This document shows, one piece after another, positions 15,135-24,567 of a stretch of DNA of 64,000 nucleotides (within the stretch, counting starts at the first letter, position 1; each line of letters begins with the position of its first letter). A model generated the notes under the pieces. It saw only the letters and a list, made by a program, of their open reading frames with translations. It had not been told where the DNA came from and ran no database searches. This DNA comes from Cystobacter ferrugineus (GTDB lineage Bacteria > Myxococcota > Myxococcia > Myxococcales > Myxococcaceae), in NCBI RefSeq assembly GCF_001887355.1, contig NZ_MPIN01000026.1:1-64000 (forward strand), given 5' to 3'. The translations under genes and the position numbers were made by a program.

Positions 15135-17414
15135 TTAGCCGTCGGAGGGCGCCACCAGCGAAGGGGAGTAGTCCGCGGCCACGGACACCACACCGCTCGG
15201 CCCCTGCACCTGAACCGGAGTCAGTTGGTCGCTCGTGGTGCCATCCCCCAGCGCACCGTAGGAGTTGGAGCCCCAGGCCCATACGGTGCCGTCGGAGCGC
15301 ACGGCCAGCGAGTGGAAGGAGTCGGCCGACACGGACGCCACCCCGCTCAACCCTTGCACCCGCACTGGCAGCAAACGGTTGGTCCCGGTGCCATCCCCCA
15401 ACTGACCGTAATGGTTTCTACCCCAGGCCCACACGGTGCCGTCGGAGCGCACCACCAGCGAATTGTAGTTGCCCGCGGCCGCCGACATCATTCCGCCCAG
15501 CCCCTGCACCTGACGCGGCTCCAGGTGGTCGCGCGTGGTGCCATCTCCCAACTGACCGTAGTAGTTGCGGCCCAAGGTCCATACGGAACCATCGGAGCGC
15601 ACCGCCAGCGCGTGGCTGACGCCCATCGCCACGGTCGCCACCTCGCTCAATCCCTGCACCTGCACCGGCACCAGACTTTCGGCCCAGCCCCGTCCCCAGA
15701 CCCACACCGTGCCGTCGGAGCGCACCGCCAGCGAATGCTCGGCGCCCGCCGCCACGGCCACCACCCCGCTCAGCTCTTGCACCTGCACTGGCACCAGGCG
15801 GTTGTCCTGGGTGCCGTCCCCCAGTTGGCCAACGCTATTTCTACCCCAGGCCCACACGGTGCCGTCGGAGCGCACCGCCAGCGAATGGTCGACGCCCGCC
15901 GCCACGGCTACCACCCCGCTCAGCCCTTGCACCTGCACTGGCACCAGGCGGTTGTCCTGGGTGCCGTCCCCCAGTTGGCCAGCCCAGTTGTCGCCCCAGG
16001 CCCACACGGTGCCGTCGGAGCGCACCGCCAGCGAGTGGGCTTTGCCCGCCACCGCGGCCACCACTCCGTTCAGCCCCTGCACCTGCACTGGCACCAGGCG
16101 TTTGCTCTGGGTGCCATCGCCGAGTTGGCCGTGCGCGTTGTCGCCCCAGGCCCACACGGTGCCGTCGGAGCGCACCGCCAGCGAATAGTGATAGCCCGCC
16201 GCCACGGCTACCACGCTGTTCAGTCCCTTCACTCCCTGCATCCACATCCGCACTGACAGCGAACGGTCGCTCGTGGTGACATCCCCCAGTTGGCCGAAGG
16301 AGTTGAAGCCCCAGGCCCACACGGTGCCGTCAGAACGTACCGCCAGTGAATGGAAGATGCCCGCGGCCACGGCCACCACTCCGCTCAGCCCCTGCACCTG
16401 CACCTTCTCCAGACTGTTGTAGCCCTTTTTGCCATTGCCGAGTTGGCCGTACTCGTTGTAGCCCAAGGCCTTCACGGTGCCGTCCTCCATCAGGAGGAGT
16501 GAGTGGCCGTAGCCCGCCGCCACAGACACCGCCCTATACACCCAGTTCATCGACACTGGCGTCGAACGGAATTCCCGGGTGTCATCTCCCAACTGGCCGT
16601 AGGTGTTGTCGCCCCACGCCCACACGATGCCGCCAGAATGTAACGCCAGCGAATGGTAGGCGCCCGCCGACACGGCCACCACCCCGCTCAACCCCTGCAC
16701 CTGTACCGGAACAGGATGGCGAGTGACCCAGTTGTCGCCCCAGGTCCACACGGTGCCGTCGGAGCGCAACGCCAGCGAATGGGAGAAGCCCGCCGCCACG
16801 GACACCACTCCGCTCAGCCCCTGCACCTGCACTGGCACCGAACGGTCGGTGGTGGTGCCGTCCCCCAGTTGGCCAGCCCAGTTGTCGCCCCAGGCCCACA
16901 CGGTGCCGTCGGAGCGCACCGCCAGCGAATGGCCGAGGCCCGCCGCCACGGCCACCACCCCGCTCAGCCCCTGCACCTGAACCGGAGTCGGGCGGTGGTC
17001 GCCCCTCGTACCATCCCCCAACTGGCCTTCGGTGTTGTCGCCCCAGGCCCACGCGGTACCGTCAGCGCGAGCCACCAGCGAATGGTAGGTGCCCGCGGCC
17101 ACGGCCACCACTCCATTCACCCCCACCACCTGCACGGGCACCGAGTGGTTGACCTGGGTGCCATCTCCTAGCTGGCCCGAGCCGTTGGAGCCTGTTGCCC
17201 AGACAGTGCCATCTGGGAGCGCCACCAGCGAATGATACTCGCCCGCGGATATGACCGCCACTCCGCCTGGCCCCCGCAAGGGGGCCGAGCGATTACTCGT
17301 GGTGCCATCCCCTCGCTTTCCTGAATCATCAATGGGCTGACCACAAGCCATCACCAGCACCGCGAGCCAGACTTCCAGCAGTCTGGTCATCCAGCGTTTC
17401 GCATTGATTTGCAT
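15135..17414 (-). CDS. RCC1-repeat (BNR-like) lipoprotein
   Basis: A 759-residue secreted protein with a lipoprotein signal (hydrophobic stretch ending VLVMACGQ, Cys near residue 24). The rest is 14 full RCC1 repeats of about 50 residues, each with the pattern VVAVAAG..HSLAVRSDGTV and WAWGDN..GQLGDGT, plus the first third of a fifteenth. Seven such blades make one propeller, so 14 fit two propellers. The protein stops abruptly at PSDG, inside blade 15, which could be a closing strand or a truncation. Blades 4 and 11 are short, lacking GQLGDGT. Family members are extracellular or cell-surface binding scaffolds; the partner is unknown. The start ATG at 17414 has AGGA about 8 bases upstream. Confidence 0.85.
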   Translation of the reverse strand: MQINAKRWMTRLLEVWLAVLVMACGQPIDDSGKRGDGTTSNRSAPLRGPGGVAVISAGEYHSLVALPDGTVWATGSNGSGQLGDGTQVNHSVPVQVVGVNGVVAVAAGTYHSLVARADGTAWAWGDNTEGQLGDGTRGDHRPTPVQVQGLSGVVAVAAGLGHSLAVRSDGTVWAWGDNWAGQLGDGTTTDRSVPVQVQGLSGVVSVAAGFSHSLALRSDGTVWTWGDNWVTRHPVPVQVQGLSGVVAVSAGAYHSLALHSGGIVWAWGDNTYGQLGDDTREFRSTPVSMNWVYRAVSVAAGYGHSLLLMEDGTVKALGYNEYGQLGNGKKGYNSLEKVQVQGLSGVVAVAAGIFHSLAVRSDGTVWAWGFNSFGQLGDVTTSDRSLSVRMWMQGVKGLNSVVAVAAGYHYSLAVRSDGTVWAWGDNAHGQLGDGTQSKRLVPVQVQGLNGVVAAVAGKAHSLAVRSDGTVWAWGDNWAGQLGDGTQDNRLVPVQVQGLSGVVAVAAGVDHSLAVRSDGTVWAWGRNSVGQLGDGTQDNRLVPVQVQELSGVVAVAAGAEHSLAVRSDGTVWVWGRGWAESLVPVQVQGLSEVATVAMGVSHALAVRSDGSVWTLGRNYYGQLGDGTTRDHLEPRQVQGLGGMMSAAAGNYNSLVVRSDGTVWAWGRNHYGQLGDGTGTNRLLPVRVQGLSGVASVSADSFHSLAVRSDGTVWAWGSNSYGALGDGTTSDQLTPVQVQGPSGVVSVAADYSPSLVAPSDG
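15175..17290 (-). repeat. DNA-level tandem repeats encoding RCC1 blades
   Basis: Units of about 150 bases recur along the gene; those between 15.8 and 16.4 kb are nearly identical and share CCCACACGGTGCCGTCGGAG and CCGCCAGCGA. Such near-identity in the middle and divergence at both ends suggests recent expansion by unequal recombination. Confidence 0.85.
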
Positions 17415-17826
17415 CGTTCAATTCCTGGCAAGAGGGAGAAGTGGGCATCCGGGGCCGTGTGTCTTCGAGGAGGCTTCATGGGGATGCCCTCCTGACAGTA
17501 CCTTGTTTGACACTCCAGGTGAACACAAGACATCGTCGTGACCCGTCTCGGGCAGACCCTGCGAATTCACAGAGAGGACACAAGGACGAGTTGCCATAAG
17601 ACTTCTTCAAGACTCCTGATCGCGTCGCCTCGACTCGGCGATTTGCTCGTCCGTGGGCGGGCCGTCCCCTATGTCGCTTTGCATTGCATTACTCCTGGCT
17701 GTCAGGGGCAGTCGTTGTTGAAGTCGTGGCGCACGGGCCCGTCGTCCAGGCCCGGTGTACCCGAGGAGCGGAAGGCCGCGAGCGCCGATGAGAGAGAAGC
17801 CGCGAGGTTGGAGGCTCAGGAGCCAC
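17415..17826. other. Gene-poor intergenic region
   Basis: About 410 bases separate the RCC1 gene start from the stop of the small lipoprotein gene. Apart from a possible gene tail on the minus strand (17702-17812), I find no convincing gene, RNA or terminator. The part next to 17414 presumably carries the RCC1 promoter. Confidence 0.4.
17702..17812 (-). pseudogene. Possible C-terminal gene remnant
   Basis: The minus strand reads LAAFRSSGTPGLDDG then VRHDFNNDCP before a stop at 17702-17704, with an in-frame stop about 37 codons upstream and no start codon. The residues look protein-like, but the piece is short and the family is not recognised. It may be the tail of a lost gene. Confidence 0.22.
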
Positions 17827-18378
17827 TCAAGGCGCGCTCAATGACTGCAGGACCAGCACATCCAGCTCGATGACGTCGCCCGGGGCACCCTCGGCGCCGG
17901 TCACCTCCACCCCCACCCGCTCGGTTCCGGCCGGGGCCGTCAGCTCGCGAGCAGTCCGAACCCACTCCGCGGAAAGCACCGGGCTGGAGAGCACCTCCGA
18001 CTGCAGCTCCTGGCCGCTCGCATCACGCCAGCTCACCCGCATCTCGGCGACCAGTGAGCGTCCCGGCGTCCCGCGGGCCCAGAAAGAAGCGCGGTGCGCT
18101 CCCGGGGATGCGGCAAATCCCGGCCAGTTGTCGAGATGGACGCCCCAGCCGTACAGCTCAGTCACCTCCACACGCATGCCCGCTTCGCCATCTCTCGCGG
18201 CGGTGGGCTCTCTCGAGACGTTCACCGAGAACCACGGGACCCACTGTCCGAGCCCGGTCTCGAGAGACGCCGTCTCGGCGTCGAGCAGATTGGAGGTGGG
18301 GGGATGGTCGATGATGGCAGGCTCGCAGGCGGTGAGCGCCGCGACCAGCGACAGCACGCTCCAGCGCCCCGGTCTCAT
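17827..18378 (-). CDS. Putative lipoprotein with carbohydrate-binding-like fold
   Basis: A 183-residue exported protein. The N-terminus has a lipoprotein signal (LSLVAALTACEP, Cys at residue 18). The mature part reads like the jelly-roll of family 4/9-type carbohydrate-binding modules: a Trp/Phe-rich strand GQWVPWFSVNVS, then HRASFWARGTPGRSLVAEM and a final VIELDVLVLQSL strand. The fold assignment is by pattern only. Its start overlaps the end of the FecR gene by four bases (ATGA), so it is the last gene of the sigma/FecR operon and may be the surface component that this regulatory pair serves. Confidence 0.65.
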   Translation of the reverse strand: MRPGRWSVLSLVAALTACEPAIIDHPPTSNLLDAETASLETGLGQWVPWFSVNVSREPTAARDGEAGMRVEVTELYGWGVHLDNWPGFAASPGAHRASFWARGTPGRSLVAEMRVSWRDASGQELQSEVLSSPVLSAEWVRTARELTAPAGTERVGVEVTGAEGAPGDVIELDVLVLQSLSAP

Positions 18379-19409
18379 CGCCCTGTCTCCCCGTCACGGG
18401 CCTGACAGGACAGCGTCTCACGGGCACGCTGGACTGCCTCTGCATAGCGCCCACGCTGGAACTGTCGTTCGTGGCGGGCCCAGTGCGCACAGGCGCGCTG
18501 CGCGTCCTCGAGCTGGTACGTGAGCAGCGAGCCCAGCTCGAAGCTGAGGCGCTCCCTCGTCGCCGCGGGCTGCTTGCGCATCGCCGCCTCGAGGTACCGC
18601 GCCGCTTGCTCGAACTCGTGCCGACCGCGAAGGACCTCCAGCTCTCGCAAGATTTCCTCCACGCTCGGGGCACGGCCCGCCGCGGCGGGGGGGCGGGAGG
18701 AAGCGACCACCGGGCTGGGCGTGGCCAGGGGCTGGGGCGGTTCCGGCTCGGGAGACGCCAGCTCGCGACGTGCTGGCTCGGCGGGTTCGGCCACCGGCCA
18801 CCCCAACGTCTGCCCCGGCCGAAGCTGAACCACCTCACCCGTGAGCCGACGGAAGAGAATTGCGCCTTCGTGCAGGGTGACCGCTCCACCCGCTTCCCGC
18901 TCCTCCACTGTGAAGCGCGTCCCCATGACCTCAATCGCCCCACCCGACACGAGCACGACAACGGGGGAGGCCCCTGGCTTTCGGCGCTCCACCGAGAACT
19001 CCGCGCGGCCGCGGACCAGTCGCACCCCCGACGGCTCGCGACGAACGACGAGCGGCCCCAGGTTCCGAAGGGCGAGGCCTCGGGCGTCGTCCACCAGGGC
19101 GGCCTCACCCATCTGGATTTCCACCCCCGCGGCGTCTTCCCGCACCCTCAGGTCGGGAGTGGCCTGTGCGAGTTCGAGCCCCCCCAGCGAGCGTGCGGAC
19201 GGAGCGCTCCAGAAGAACACCGCGAGGGCGAGCGCCGCTGCCGACGCAGCGACCATCAACCATACGGGACGTCTGTGCCGTGCCGGCTTCGGCTCGCGCG
19301 CGTCCCGCAGCCGCGACCACAGCCGGGCCCGGGCGGCCGGGGGCATCCCCTGCTCGCGGCGGAACTGGTCTTCACGCCGGAGCTCGGCGCGGAAGTCACG
19401 GGGAGCCAT
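18375..19409 (-). CDS. FecR-domain anti-sigma/regulatory membrane protein
   Basis: A 344-residue inner-membrane protein. A cytoplasmic N-terminus of about 47 basic residues is followed by one transmembrane segment (MVAASAAALALAVFFW) and a periplasmic FecR domain (about 95-195) with VRGRAEFSVERR and VMGTRFTVEERE. A Pro/Glu-rich linker and a helical, TPR-like C-terminus follow. FecR proteins pass a periplasmic signal to an ECF sigma factor held at the membrane. The gene overlaps the preceding sigma gene by 14 bases and the following lipoprotein gene by 4, so the three are translationally coupled. Confidence 0.82.
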   Translation of the reverse strand: MAPRDFRAELRREDQFRREQGMPPAARARLWSRLRDAREPKPARHRRPVWLMVAASAAALALAVFFWSAPSARSLGGLELAQATPDLRVREDAAGVEIQMGEAALVDDARGLALRNLGPLVVRREPSGVRLVRGRAEFSVERRKPGASPVVVLVSGGAIEVMGTRFTVEEREAGGAVTLHEGAILFRRLTGEVVQLRPGQTLGWPVAEPAEPARRELASPEPEPPQPLATPSPVVASSRPPAAAGRAPSVEEILRELEVLRGRHEFEQAARYLEAAMRKQPAATRERLSFELGSLLTYQLEDAQRACAHWARHERQFQRGRYAEAVQRARETLSCQARDGETGR

Positions 19410-19959
19410 CGTCCACCTTCCATCCCCAGGCCGACAGGCGGCCCTGGGCGCGGCTGATCAACTTCGACACGTAGCCCTCCGACAGCGAGAGGAGCTGGGC
19501 AATCTCGCGCTGGCTCAGGTCATCCAGCATCTTCAAACTCATCACCACCCGCTCCTGCCCCGGCAAGCGGTCCAGCGCCGCCGTGGCGCCGCGCACCGCC
19601 TCTCGCCGCTCGAGGGCCGCCTCGGGCGTGGACTCCGTCTCCGTGCGCTGCGACGGAAACAGGAGGGCGGCGAGGCGCCGTCGAAACGTGTTCTCGCGCC
19701 GCAGGGCGGAGAGCGCCACGTTCTGCGTGACGCGAAACAGCCAGCCCCTCACGTCCTCCTCGCGCAGCCAGGCCCGGTGCTCCCAGGCCTTGAGAAAGAC
19801 ATCGTGCGTAACGTCTTCGGCCCAGCCCGAGCGGCCCGCCGCATACCGCATGGCCCAGAAGAAAACATCCTCGGCATGCTCCTCGTAGAGCGTGTCGAAC
19901 GACACAGGTCGGGCGGGCAGGGCGGGCGGGGCCTTCTTGGAGTGGGGAGCGCGCGACAT
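19396..19959 (-). CDS. ECF-type RNA polymerase sigma factor
   Basis: A 187-residue extracytoplasmic-function sigma factor with only regions 2 and 4. Region 2 carries AEDVTHDVFLKAWEH and WLFRVTQNVALSALRR (-10 recognition). Region 4 carries LPGQERVVMSLKMLDDLSQR and the helix-turn-helix QREIAQLLSLSEGYVSKLIS (-35 recognition). It directs polymerase to a small regulon and is presumably held by the FecR protein encoded next. A candidate promoter, GGAAAGTT-N14-CGTAGG, lies at 19974-20001, just ahead of its start. The same motif fronts the DUF1592 operon 1.1 kb away, implying autoregulation plus control of that operon. Confidence 0.9.
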   Translation of the reverse strand: MSRAPHSKKAPPALPARPVSFDTLYEEHAEDVFFWAMRYAAGRSGWAEDVTHDVFLKAWEHRAWLREEDVRGWLFRVTQNVALSALRRENTFRRRLAALLFPSQRTETESTPEAALERREAVRGATAALDRLPGQERVVMSLKMLDDLSQREIAQLLSLSEGYVSKLISRAQGRLSAWGWKVDDGSP

Positions 19960-19973
19960 CCATCACCTGGGCA

Positions 19974-20001
19974 CCTACGATGGGCGCCGGAGAAACTTTC
20001 C
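19974..20001 (-). promoter_or_regulatory. Candidate ECF promoter of the sigma operon
   Basis: On the minus strand GGAAAGTT is followed after 14 bases by CGTAGG. The arrangement matches the site at 21032-21059 in sequence and spacing and resembles two-part ECF promoters. Transcription would start about 8 bases before the sigma ATG at 19959. Confidence 0.6.
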
Positions 20002-20008
20002 TCGGAGG

Positions 20009-20947
20009 TTACGGCCACCAGGAGAGGCTGGCGCCGGTTTCGAGCCTCGCGCCTCCCCGCGACCACAGCGTTCCGCCCTCGTTCGTATGGCTCACTGGTC
20101 TCAGCAGGCCCAGGGCCACGCGCAGCTCCGCCGCGAGGCGCTCGGTGAATCTCCACCGGAGCTTCATCCGGGCCCAGCCCGCGGGAGACACCTGCGTACC
20201 GGACCGGGCCGACACCCAGGAGGCCGCGAGCTGGTAGGTGTGGAGGACGACGCCCGCGCCCACGCCAGGTTCGAGCTGAAGACGCTCCGACGCGGAGAGC
20301 CGATAACTGAAGAAGGCGCCACCTTGCGCCTCGAGCACGGCCAGCTCCGCGCCGCGAGACCCCCCGAGCCCCGCCTCCGCCTCGAGGCCGAACGCCCCCA
20401 GGCCATGCCGGATGGACAGCAGGAGGTGTGGGTCGACGGCGGGTCCACGCCAGAGCGAACCCAGGCCCAGGCTCAGGTCCAGCTCGGAGCTCCGTGGGGC
20501 GGAAGCCACCCCCACGGGAGGCTGGGGCACGGGCCCAGCAATCTGGGTCTCGGGCTCGGCCGCCTGGGGCTCGGGAGGGGGCGGCTCCGGTTCGGGCTTC
20601 AGCGCCCGCGTCATCTCGGACAGCTTCTGTGCGATCTCCAAGTGGAACTCCGCGAGCGAGCCCCGCCCCATGCGAACACTCTGCTCGACCCGCTGCCGCG
20701 GCCCGACTGCCTCGAGCCGCAGTCCTTCGGGAGTGCGGCTCACGCGCAGTCGAAGCTGAGCCGGGCTCTCCGGAGAAACGACCGCGAAGCCCTCCTGTAT
20801 CAACCGGAGCGCCACCTTCCGCTCCAGCTCCACACCTTCCCACCGCCGGTAGTCCTGGTAGGGCAGGGGGCGAAGGTCGAAGGAAACGGACACCGCCGGG
20901 GCCTGGGTCAGGAAGATGAGGGACAGCGCGCTGAGTAGAGCAGTCAT
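20009..20947 (-). CDS. Secreted protein with N-terminal Pro-rich-linked domain and beta-rich C-terminus
   Basis: A 312-residue protein of unknown function. A Sec signal peptide (MTALLSALSLIFLTQAPAVS) leads to a domain of about 100 residues, then a Glu/Pro-rich linker (EPEPPPPEPQ), then about 150 residues of alternating beta strands with many Gly and aromatic residues (LDLSLGLGSLW, GVGAGVVLHTY), like a small outer-membrane barrel. It lies 49 bases ahead of the ECF sigma gene on the same strand. A gene with the same build (58885-59934) precedes a second ECF sigma gene in this window, so the protein is probably part of the signalling unit. The ATG at 20947 is chosen because the signal peptide starts there. 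Confidence 0.65.
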   Translation of the reverse strand: MTALLSALSLIFLTQAPAVSVSFDLRPLPYQDYRRWEGVELERKVALRLIQEGFAVVSPESPAQLRLRVSRTPEGLRLEAVGPRQRVEQSVRMGRGSLAEFHLEIAQKLSEMTRALKPEPEPPPPEPQAAEPETQIAGPVPQPPVGVASAPRSSELDLSLGLGSLWRGPAVDPHLLLSIRHGLGAFGLEAEAGLGGSRGAELAVLEAQGGAFFSYRLSASERLQLEPGVGAGVVLHTYQLAASWVSARSGTQVSPAGWARMKLRWRFTERLAAELRVALGLLRPVSHTNEGGTLWSRGGARLETGASLSWWP

Positions 20948-21031
20948 GCGGTGACGATGATAGTACCGTCGACCGTGGACCCCCGTCAGCTTCGGCTGTC
21001 CGGGCCCTCCAGCGGATCGTCCCCACAAGGA

Positions 21032-21059
21032 GGAAAGTTCTTTCGGCCTGGCGCGTAGT
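21032..21059 (+). promoter_or_regulatory. Candidate ECF promoter of the DUF1592-DUF1552 operon
   Basis: GGAAAGTT, 14 bases, then CGTAGT, matching the motif upstream of the ECF sigma gene at 19396-19959. The start codon at 21066 lies only about 7 bases beyond the -10 box, so the transcript would be nearly leaderless. The AGGAGG at 21029-21034 is too far away to serve as a ribosome site. Confidence 0.6.
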
Positions 21060-21065
21060 GGGGGC

Positions 21066-22859
21066 ATGACTTCTCCACGCCTTGTGAGCCTCCTGCTTCT
21101 CTGCGCGGGCGCGGTCGCCTGCTATGGCAGCATCGAGCAACCCGTCTCCGGCGGAAACGACTCCGCCGGCGAAGACGACCCTGCTCCGCCCGCTTCGTCC
21201 GCGCCCATCCCCCCCGCACCGGAGCAGTTCTCCTGCGACGTGAACGCCGTCCCCGTCGACCTGCCATTGCCCAGGCTGTCCCGGACCCAACTGGGGAACT
21301 CGCTTCGCTTCGCCATTGCCCGTGCCTTGCCGAGCGAGGCGGACGCCATCTGGGCGAAGGTAGCGCCCACCTTCGCCCGGTACCCCACGGACCAGCGCAC
21401 ACCCGCCCCCGGTGACCTGAAGGGAGGCTACAGCCGGCTGGACCAGTCCATCCAGCAGGCCCAGATCGACGCCATGTACGACCTGGGGCAAGCCGTGGCC
21501 CAGGAGCTCACCGGCAGCGACGCGCGCCGCAATGCCCTCCTGGGGAGCTGCGCGAGCGACGGACAGACTGCCAACGACCGGGCCTGCCTGGAGACCTTCA
21601 TCCGCGGCTGGGGCTCCCGCGTCCTGCGCCACCCACTGCCGGCGGCGGAGGTCACTGCCTTCGCGGACATCGCGGGGAGTACTCCGGTGGACAGGGCGGC
21701 GGTGGCCGGCGTCATCACCGCGCTCCTGAACTCGCCCTGGTTCCTCTACCGGGTCGAGCATGGAACCGACGCCAGCCAGCCGGTGAGCCCGCTCTCCGCG
21801 TTCGAGCTGGCCTCGAGGCTGTCCTACCAATTCTGGCAAGCGCCTCCCGACGACGAGCTCTGGGCCGCGGCGGTCAATGGCTCGCTCCTGACCGAGGCCG
21901 GCTTCGCTGCCCAGCTCAATCGGATGCTCCAAGGTCCCCAACTGCGAAGCTCGCTGGACGAGTTCGTCAGCGAGTGGCTGCGGCTCGAGGAGCTGCCGTC
22001 GCTGGTCGCGCTCCGGAACGACCCGGTCTATCAGGCCTTCGTCGGGGAGGAGATGCCCACGGACGCTGCTCGCACCGCGATGTTCGAGGACGTCCAGCTC
22101 TCCGCCTGGCAGACAATCGTGTCGGGTGGCTCGGTGAGCGACTTCCTCCACGACCGGAGGTCCTACACGGGGGAGCACTACCTGGCCTCCATCTACGGTG
22201 TGCCCGTCTGGAGCGGCTCCGGTCCGGCACCGGTCATCCCTTCCCAGAACCGCAGCGGGCTGCTGACACGCGCCGCCCTGCTGGCCACGGGAACCGCGTC
22301 GACGCGTCCCATCCACAAAGGATACATGGTGCGGAACGCGCTGCTCTGCCAGCAGGTCGGGGCCCCACCTCCCAACGCCAGCGACAGGCCTCCCTCGCCG
22401 ACCGAGGATATGACGACGCGACAGGCTGTGACCCAGCTCACCTCCGGAGGCAGTTGTGGAGGCTGTCATGACCAGACCATCAACCCGCCGGGCTTCGTGC
22501 TGGAAGGGTTCGATGCGCTCGGACGGGAACGCAGCGTGGAGCGGCTGTATGACCCGCAGGGCCACGTGACGAACACCCCGCCGGTGGACACCGTAGCGGA
22601 AGTGCGGGTCTACGGCTCCGAGCGGCGGGTCGTCACCAGCGCCGCCGAGCTCACGCAGTTGATTGATGACAGCCAGCTCTTCGAGTCCTGCCTCGCGCTC
22701 CAGTACTTCCGCTTCTCGCATGCTCGCGTGGAGTCCACCTCGCGGGATGGCTGCCTGCTCTCGGAGATGGAGGCAGCCGCGCGCAGCGGAGCACCGATGG
22801 CCGACATGCTGAAGGCGTTCGCCAACCACCCCACGTTCAAGCAGAGGAGCTTCCAGTGA
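21066..22859 (+). CDS. DUF1592/DUF1588 lipoprotein with cytochrome-type CxxCH motif
   Basis: A 597-residue exported protein (signal LLLLCAGAVACYGS, likely a lipoprotein) of the DUF1587-1592-1588-1585 family found in myxobacteria and planctomycetes. Recognisable blocks are TFIRGWGSRVLRHPLP (DUF1595), FLYRVEHG and SAFELASRLSYQFWQAPPDD (DUF1592), NRSGLLTRAALLA with THKGYMVRN-like text and CGGCHDQTINPPGF (DUF1588), and FRFSHARVESTSRDGC near the end. CGGCH is a heme c-type CxxCH motif, although heme binding is unproven in this family. It overlaps the DUF1552 gene by four bases (ATGA), and these two families are regular partners. The ECF-like promoter in front suggests stress or substrate control. 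Confidence 0.85.
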   Translation: MTSPRLVSLLLLCAGAVACYGSIEQPVSGGNDSAGEDDPAPPASSAPIPPAPEQFSCDVNAVPVDLPLPRLSRTQLGNSLRFAIARALPSEADAIWAKVAPTFARYPTDQRTPAPGDLKGGYSRLDQSIQQAQIDAMYDLGQAVAQELTGSDARRNALLGSCASDGQTANDRACLETFIRGWGSRVLRHPLPAAEVTAFADIAGSTPVDRAAVAGVITALLNSPWFLYRVEHGTDASQPVSPLSAFELASRLSYQFWQAPPDDELWAAAVNGSLLTEAGFAAQLNRMLQGPQLRSSLDEFVSEWLRLEELPSLVALRNDPVYQAFVGEEMPTDAARTAMFEDVQLSAWQTIVSGGSVSDFLHDRRSYTGEHYLASIYGVPVWSGSGPAPVIPSQNRSGLLTRAALLATGTASTRPIHKGYMVRNALLCQQVGAPPPNASDRPPSPTEDMTTRQAVTQLTSGGSCGGCHDQTINPPGFVLEGFDALGRERSVERLYDPQGHVTNTPPVDTVAEVRVYGSERRVVTSAAELTQLIDDSQLFESCLALQYFRFSHARVESTSRDGCLLSEMEAAARSGAPMADMLKAFANHPTFKQRSFQ

Positions 22860-24466
22860 GCAGCACACCTGTCTTCCGAGTGGACCGCCGCATGTTCCTT
22901 CGCGGCGCGGGCGGAGCCGTCCTGGCGTTGCCGCTGCTCCCATCGCTGCTGAGCCCGAGAGAAGCGAAGGCCCAGGCGGCCCAGCGCCCGAAGTGCTTCG
23001 TGCACTTCCGTACCCCCCATGGCGCCATCTTCGGCGCGAACATGTGGCCGGCGGACTCGGCGCTGACGCAGGCCCTGTTCTACGCGAGCCACGACGTCCG
23101 GAGAGGGGCGCTGGCCGCGCCGGTCAACGCGAGCGGTGATGCGGTCATCAGCCGGGTGCTGACCGCGCGGTCGACGGTGCTCACGCCCACCCTCGTCTCG
23201 AAGATGAACATCCTGCGGGGCCTCGACTTCCCCCTGTACATGGGTCACAACTTCGGCGCCGCGCTGGGCTACTACGACTTCGACAAGCAGCGGCCCGCCT
23301 CGCCTCGGGCGACCATCGACCAGGTGATGGCCTACTCTCCGGCCTTCTACCCGAGTGTCGCCTCCGTCCGGAAACGAAGCGTCGCCATCGCCGCCTCGGG
23401 TACCGCGAGCGGGAGCTGGGGCTACAGCACCCCCGGGGTTCGCTCCTCCGGGGTCGCCTCGAGCCCCATCAGCTCCATGGAGAGCTCGCTCGCCCTGTTC
23501 GACATCCTGCTGGCCGGCACCAGCGGCTCCGGCAACACCCGGGCACCGGTGGTGGACAGGATTCTCGACAGCTATCGGCGGCTCCGCAACGGCAACAGCC
23601 GACTCTCGGCCGAGGACCGAACGCGACTGGACCAGCACATCGACGCCGTCGCCGAGCTGCAGCGCCGGCTGGAGGCGACCACCGGCGCCGGCTGTCAGGT
23701 GCCGCAGCGGCCCACCACCGACAACCTGTCGCTCAAGCGCTCGGGCTCCTTTGCGGGAGACCCCGCGAAGAACGTCGAATACTTCCGGCTCATCAACGAG
23801 GTGCTCGCCGTGGCGATGAACTGCGGCGTCTGCCGCATCGCCACCATCAGCATCGACGAGAACAACCAGAACCTGACGTTCACCACCCGCGCCCCGCAGG
23901 GTGAAGACTGGCACAACAACGTCGTTCATCCGTCGACCGTGGCCGGGCCGAACCAGGACCTGGTGGTCCAGTTCAACCAGGTCTTCTTCTCGCAGGTGTT
24001 CCTCGACCTCGTCTCCCGTTTCGAGCGGTTCTCGAACGGCGCGGGTGGAACGCTGCTGGATGACTCGCTGCTCGCGTGGGCCCAGGAGAACGGCAACACC
24101 CCACACTTCTCCTTCTCCGTCCCGGTGGTGACCGCCGGGAGCGCGGGAGGCGCGCTCAAGACCGGCAGCTACTGCGACTACCGGAACACCACGCGCAAGG
24201 TGAGCGGAGACTCCAGCACGGGCAGCGAGGGCAACTACCTGTGGGCAGGCCTCCTCTACAACCAGTGGCTCGGCACCGCGCTCCAGGCGATGAGCATCCC
24301 GAAGGCGGAGTGGAGTGAGTCCGACCATCCCGGTTACGGCTGGAAGGCGTCGTACCAATCTACGTACGAGTACTTCTTCACGAACAAAGGCTTCACCTCG
24401 GCGCAGGCCTATCCGTCGTCGATGTGGCAGAAGACCGGAGAGCTGCTGCCGTTTCTCGCGCCGTAG
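22856..24466 (+). CDS. DUF1552 protein with Tat signal
   Basis: A 536-residue protein with a twin-arginine signal (VDRRMFLRGAGGAVLALPLL), meaning export in folded form, often with a cofactor. The mature part shows DUF1552 landmarks: HFRTPHGAIF, the LRGLDF and YMGHNFG region, and a C-terminal GWKASYQSTYEYFF block. It is translationally coupled to the DUF1592 gene and is its standard neighbour. The family's biochemical role is not established; a periplasmic redox or polymer-degrading pair is a guess. Confidence 0.85.
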   Translation: MSSTPVFRVDRRMFLRGAGGAVLALPLLPSLLSPREAKAQAAQRPKCFVHFRTPHGAIFGANMWPADSALTQALFYASHDVRRGALAAPVNASGDAVISRVLTARSTVLTPTLVSKMNILRGLDFPLYMGHNFGAALGYYDFDKQRPASPRATIDQVMAYSPAFYPSVASVRKRSVAIAASGTASGSWGYSTPGVRSSGVASSPISSMESSLALFDILLAGTSGSGNTRAPVVDRILDSYRRLRNGNSRLSAEDRTRLDQHIDAVAELQRRLEATTGAGCQVPQRPTTDNLSLKRSGSFAGDPAKNVEYFRLINEVLAVAMNCGVCRIATISIDENNQNLTFTTRAPQGEDWHNNVVHPSTVAGPNQDLVVQFNQVFFSQVFLDLVSRFERFSNGAGGTLLDDSLLAWAQENGNTPHFSFSVPVVTAGSAGGALKTGSYCDYRNTTRKVSGDSSTGSEGNYLWAGLLYNQWLGTALQAMSIPKAEWSESDHPGYGWKASYQSTYEYFFTNKGFTSAQAYPSSMWQKTGELLPFLAP

Positions 24467-24567
24467 CCGACCCCGGCCTCTCCACCTGCCTGGCGCACTG
24501 CTCGGCCGGCCTCTGTCCGCGGCTCTCCCCTCCCGCTTGCTTCACGTCCGCCAAGACCCACCGCCTG

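Follow-up and report, generated by a model that had tools for sequence, protein, structure and literature searches.

An ECF sigma factor gene and a DUF1592-DUF1552 operon of Cystobacter ferrugineus are preceded by the same bipartite promoter signature, and since this signature is kept together in 20 myxobacterial genomes, the sigma factor of the locus very probably activates both itself and the pair. Both transcription units belong to a self-contained cassette, g4-FecR-sigma-OMP / DUF1592-DUF1552, at positions 17804–24473 of the window, by which we mean the whole stretch of 64,000 nucleotides that was analysed. For DUF1592-DUF1552 proteins, which are common in myxobacteria, this yields one particular predicted regulator and a regulon of two promoters that can be tested.

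A pattern scan of the window located two copies of GGAAAGTT-N14-CGTAG with the same spacing, as the initial annotation had described, one on the minus strand at 19975–20001 and one on the plus strand at 21032–21058. The minus-strand site ends 15 nt upstream of the sigma ATG (19959) and the plus-strand site ends 7 nt upstream of the DUF1592 ATG (21066). No third copy is present in the window even when two mismatches are allowed, which bears out the earlier statement that there was no other, and the two are the only exact matches on both strands of the whole 12.05-Mb genome, where the reversed-pattern control gave 0 and the order-0 expectation for 13 fixed bases is ~0.09 per genome. When one mismatch was allowed in the 12-base core, the genome-wide count was 19 versus 25 for the reversed control, that is, there was no enrichment. 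Further targets in the C. ferrugineus genome were considered and rejected, as the 17 sites with one mismatch are not in excess of the control; none of these 17, genome-wide, stands in a clean position ahead of a coding frame. The exact-motif regulon in this genome would be the cassette alone.

Conservation was followed in 20 cassettes with a close sigma orthologue, the window included, using loci from genome collections. Loss of the motif from orthologous loci in related genomes had been named as an outcome that would speak against a common regulator. Both sites were retained in 20 of 20 cassettes, which are not independent events because much of the species set is closely related. The orthologue alignment defined the conserved core as GGAAAGT-N15-CGTAG, nearly always with an A just before it, and this core makes up both the sigma-gene element and the DUF1592-operon element of the window. 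Other likenesses that had been noted between the two window sites, namely GAG before the element, CGGC in the spacer and an eighth base T, are not conserved among the orthologues. GGAAAGT, the predicted −35 element, reached 2.0 bits at every column of both alignments. CGTAG, the predicted −10 element, reached 2.0 bits at sigma and 1.88 bits at DUF1592, the lower value arising because three loci (L063, L159 and L160) have AGTAG. The spacers vary (1.40 bits at sigma and 1.54 at DUF1592), as do the 40 nt upstream (1.24 and 0.79 bits respectively).

It could be argued that the likeness of the two sites arose by chance and was conserved merely through close kinship, and in shuffled windows, where the two-mismatch search gave a mean of 0.36 matches, 8 of 100 shuffles did reach 2 matches. 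The real sites, however, are exact and unique in 12 Mb, their two elements stay constant while spacers and flanks diverge, and the site is also found at the relocated and unlinked targets described below, so that chance is an extremely improbable explanation. A second possibility is that the conserved DNA binds a repressor, or some other regulator, at a site that overlaps the promoters, since such a protein could recognise any conserved bipartite element. Against this stands the arrangement itself: GGAAAGT, a 15-nt spacer and CGTAG are followed by a start codon 7–16 nt further on, there is no dyad symmetry, and an ECF gene is adjacent. A bipartite layout, adjacency to an ECF gene and a lack of dyad symmetry are traits of ECF promoters, and a regulator site is thus very improbable. 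We prefer to read both sites as −35/−10 elements recognised by the local ECF sigma.

More distant sigma homologues (42–50% identity) are, in most loci, also preceded by a related site, GGAAA[GC] … [CG]GTG. At two of these loci, L065 (15639/15696) and L070 (7776/7815), a flavin amine-oxidase-like gene and a BNR-repeat-type gene are separated by a divergent pair of related sites, which may mark another regulon within this sigma family.

The distance from the −10 element to the DUF1592 ATG is 7 nt in the window and 8 nt in the 19 other cassettes, and this ATG is backed by a lipoprotein signal sequence right after it. Before the sigma gene, the distance is 14–16 nt where the start is conserved. 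The usual ECF spacing from the −10 element to the transcription start is ~5–9 nt, which would place the 5′ end of the DUF1592 mRNA on its ATG or no more than a few bases away. A nearly leaderless DUF1592 mRNA, as initially proposed, is therefore a good prediction for the cassette lineage, where it fits the 7–8 nt seen in 20 of 20 loci if the usual start spacing is assumed; the proposal does not extend to Archangium, where the −10 element lies 32 nt from the DUF1592 ATG. A literature search brought up nothing useful on leaderless transcripts in Myxococcus.

One rearranged locus keeps the site at a relocated target. In Archangium lansinium (L084), the sigma operon has the DUF1592-DUF1552 pair on its opposite side, past g4; this pair is just 38–47% identical to that of the window, and still GGAAAGTTTGTTGGGCCTCGTTCGTAG is found upstream of it. 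The Archangium sigma gene itself is without the site (L084 9951–10010); autoregulation is therefore not universal, and in Archangium it may have been lost or may be different.

Unlinked sites were found in seven genomes of the Myxococcus group, each with an additional exact site far from the cassette, before the gene for an Apiosidase-domain lipoprotein (~900 aa). This apiosidase-like gene is present in exactly 7 of the 96 genomes surveyed, all seven of which own the sigma and carry the site before the gene. The idea that these extra sites mark second DUF1592 operons was rejected, since what lies behind them is the apiosidase-like gene, preceded by a short relic of a DUF1592 gene start. In five of the seven loci, a relic of an Archangium-type DUF1592 gene start lies between the site and the apiosidase-like gene, with homology of up to 131 bp at 85% identity (E 3e-36); in the other two, DUF1592 homology ends just past the promoter. 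The relic (MRFDRK.INA) stands behind an intact sigma-type promoter in L151, L154, L155, L156 and L158 (genomes G115, G120, G121, G122 and G123). The simplest reading of these sequences is that a DUF1592 gene was lost and its promoter was captured by the glycosidase gene; takeover in the reverse direction is also possible. Two sister genomes have a further exact site (L153 position 2057 and L157 position 2483) before a gene for a 464-aa lipoprotein, which gave a weak beta-propeller match.

The relation between motif and sigma was then measured across 96 family genomes, with sigma scored as present when an orthologue of at least 66% identity was found. The 21 genomes with the sigma contained 51 exact core matches versus 6 for the reversed pattern, whereas the 75 genomes without it contained 19 versus 35. 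The excess in sigma-bearing genomes corresponds to a Poisson probability of ~1e-30 if phylogeny is ignored. The close form of DUF1592 (at least 73% identity) and the close sigma were found in one and the same set of 20 genomes. Outside the cassette, the nearest DUF1592 homologues (39–45% identity, L072–L078) had no site where examined, and the notion that every myxobacterial DUF1592 operon has one was rejected.

These counts bear on whether some other ECF sigma might be the main reader of the promoters and have the local sigma as one of its targets. The genome encodes 76 first-look sigma-like candidates, ECF promoter motifs can overlap, and in Archangium it is the DUF1592 gene and not the sigma gene that has the site, all of which would be compatible with such an arrangement. 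However, the motif excess is confined to genomes owning the local sigma, the glycosidase gene with its site is found only in sigma-bearing genomes, and related sigma genes elsewhere are preceded by a related site. Because of this co-occurrence of motif and sigma, a different ECF sigma with the same specificity is considered improbable. Control of both promoters by the sigma of the locus is the reading that we hold with high confidence, and the proposal that the sigma/FecR system controls the DUF1592-DUF1552 pair gains support from the 20 of 20 cassettes, the relocated Archangium target and the sigma-linked motif excess.

The sigma gene (19396–19959, minus strand) encodes a protein of 187 aa that matches Pfam Sigma70_r2 and Sigma70_r4_2 and the NCBIfam sigma70-ECF model above cut-off. 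Like ECF sigmas, the protein is ~190 aa long with sigma-70 regions 2 and 4 only, and a bipartite promoter is conserved before its own gene and before its predicted target. The end of the sigma gene is overlapped by the gene for a FecR-domain membrane protein, a putative anti-sigma factor (18375–19409, minus strand; Pfam FecR above cut-off), in which one hydrophobic segment and a short cytoplasmic N-terminus were recognised by inspection. A FecR-domain gene beside the sigma gene is the Fec-type arrangement, and it is retained in orthologous loci. The third gene of the sigma operon, g4 (17827–18378, minus strand), encodes a small lipoprotein-like protein with a Cys after the signal sequence, seen by inspection; it is possibly carbohydrate-binding, as a g4 orthologue gave a weak CBM_4_9 match (E 0.0026, below cut-off). 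In G111, a second, partial g4 copy lies near the cassette (L159 2923–3280).

While the initial annotation located the two sites correctly, it left unmentioned the gene that sits between them (20009–20947, minus strand). This gene lies directly upstream of sigma, both in the close set and in most of the distant homologues, and its 5′ end faces the DUF1592 promoter. The product had no Pfam match, and its AlphaFold2 model (pLDDT 81) consists of a periplasmic alpha/beta domain and an outer-membrane barrel of the eight-strand type. The barrel matches OmpA, NspA and OmpW, with a best structural match of Z 18.8 and 2.5 Å over 155 residues. On the basis of this model, the outer-membrane protein (OMP) is a plausible candidate sensor.

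On the plus strand, the first gene of the target operon (21066–22859) encodes a DUF1592/1588/1595 lipoprotein matching Pfam PSD4, PSCyt3 and PSD5, with a CxxCH haem motif (CGGCH) and a lipobox that were both read from the sequence by inspection. The second (22856–24466) encodes a DUF1552 protein with a Tat-like signal, likewise recognised by inspection, and a match to Pfam HXXSHH; PF07631 and PF07586 are thus found in adjacent genes, as in a DUF1592/DUF1552 exported pair. The model of the DUF1552 protein suggests, with modest confidence, a sulfatase/alkaline-phosphatase-like fold (matches with Z up to 15.8, 4.0 Å over 263 residues), and because its pLDDT is only 67, no claim is made beyond the fold class.

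The limits of the cassette were set by blastn. Homology to 11 relatives runs from ~17,804 to ~24,473, which is exactly the six genes, at 82–91% identity. The flanks of the window matched those of none of the 20 relatives compared, with the exception of an RCC1-repeat gene on the same side in L166, and many of the relatives' flanks differ from one another too. In the window, a long RCC1-repeat lipoprotein-like gene (15135–17414, minus strand) adjoins the cassette. Three other genomes of the genus of the window are without the sigma. Since homology is limited to the six genes and the flanks are unrelated, the module appears to travel, or to be retained, as a unit. Myxococcus/Pyxidicoccus loci match the six-gene block at up to 91% identity, yet their flanks do not match those of the window; this pattern, together with the lack of the sigma in those three genomes, suggests transfer of the cassette as a unit. 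Between L166 (G124) and the window, identity is 96% for sigma and 92% for FecR but 73% for DUF1592 and 77% for DUF1552, which suggests that L166 is a mosaic cassette produced by recombination within the cassette.

The locus can be put together as follows. The FecR-domain protein would most likely keep the sigma in an inactive state at the inner membrane. The OMP encoded beside the sigma would be the likely source of the signal, although we regard this sensor step as tentative. A signal would release the sigma, and the active sigma would drive transcription of two operons, its own (sigma-FecR-g4) and DUF1592-DUF1552, thereby inducing an exported c-type-cytochrome-like lipoprotein and its sulfatase-fold partner. 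The DUF1592 haem motif, the CBM_4_9 match of the g4 orthologue and the glycosidase target together make extracellular carbohydrate-related chemistry the leading guess for the role of the system. Action of the induced pair on an extracellular (poly)saccharide-like substrate is the step of which we are least confident, and it is rather doubtful.

No regulator of a DUF1592-DUF1552 pair was found in the literature searched, nor any paper covering both DUF1592 and DUF1552; DUF1592 was named in just two of the papers. DUF1592-type and c-type cytochrome proteins have been described near carbohydrate functions: Cbp2D is an extracellular c-type cytochrome protein of polysaccharide degradation (PMC12542752), and a CBM2 DUF1592 protein is listed in a lignocellulose-degrading community (PMC6004670). 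The DUF1592 protein of the cassette resembles both as an exported haem-motif protein, a likeness that is a functional analogy only.

The closest known arrangement is FecI/FecR/FecA cell-surface signalling (E. coli fec and relatives), in which an ECF sigma and a FecR-domain membrane regulator are likewise accompanied by the gene for an outer-membrane protein next to the target operon. In Fec-type systems, proteins with a FecR domain serve as anti-sigma or signal-relay factors (PMC9249621), and from this the role of the FecR protein at our locus is inferred. The differences are in the sensor, the sigma promoter and the output. The sole OMP gene of the cassette encodes a protein modelled as a small OmpA/OmpW-like barrel and not a TonB-dependent receptor, and a TonB-dependent outer-membrane transducer with a signalling domain is absent from the cassette. 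fecIR is reported not to be autoregulated (PMC9249621), whereas in the cassette the motif of the target promoter also stands before the sigma gene. The predicted target is a haem-motif lipoprotein with a sulfatase-fold protein, unlike that of Fec iron uptake. Because the cassette has no TonB-dependent transducer and the sigma appears to be autoregulated, the locus was not classed as a member of the Fec type, although it would work in the manner of Fec surface signalling. It resembles autoregulated ECF sigmas in general, whose sigma gene and few targets have a GGAA…CGT-type bipartite promoter in common. A sigma regulon is here kept as one cassette and seems to have gained a new target through a left-over promoter. 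We suggest, tentatively, that a small outer-membrane barrel has replaced the TonB-dependent receptor as the FecR/ECF sensor, in a compact, transferable cassette that has its own complete output and may recruit genes by promoter capture, as with the apiosidase-like gene behind the relic DUF1592 promoter. In comparison with the Fec paradigm, the cassette offers a readily testable example of surface signalling of the FecR type in which no TonB-dependent receptor is obvious.
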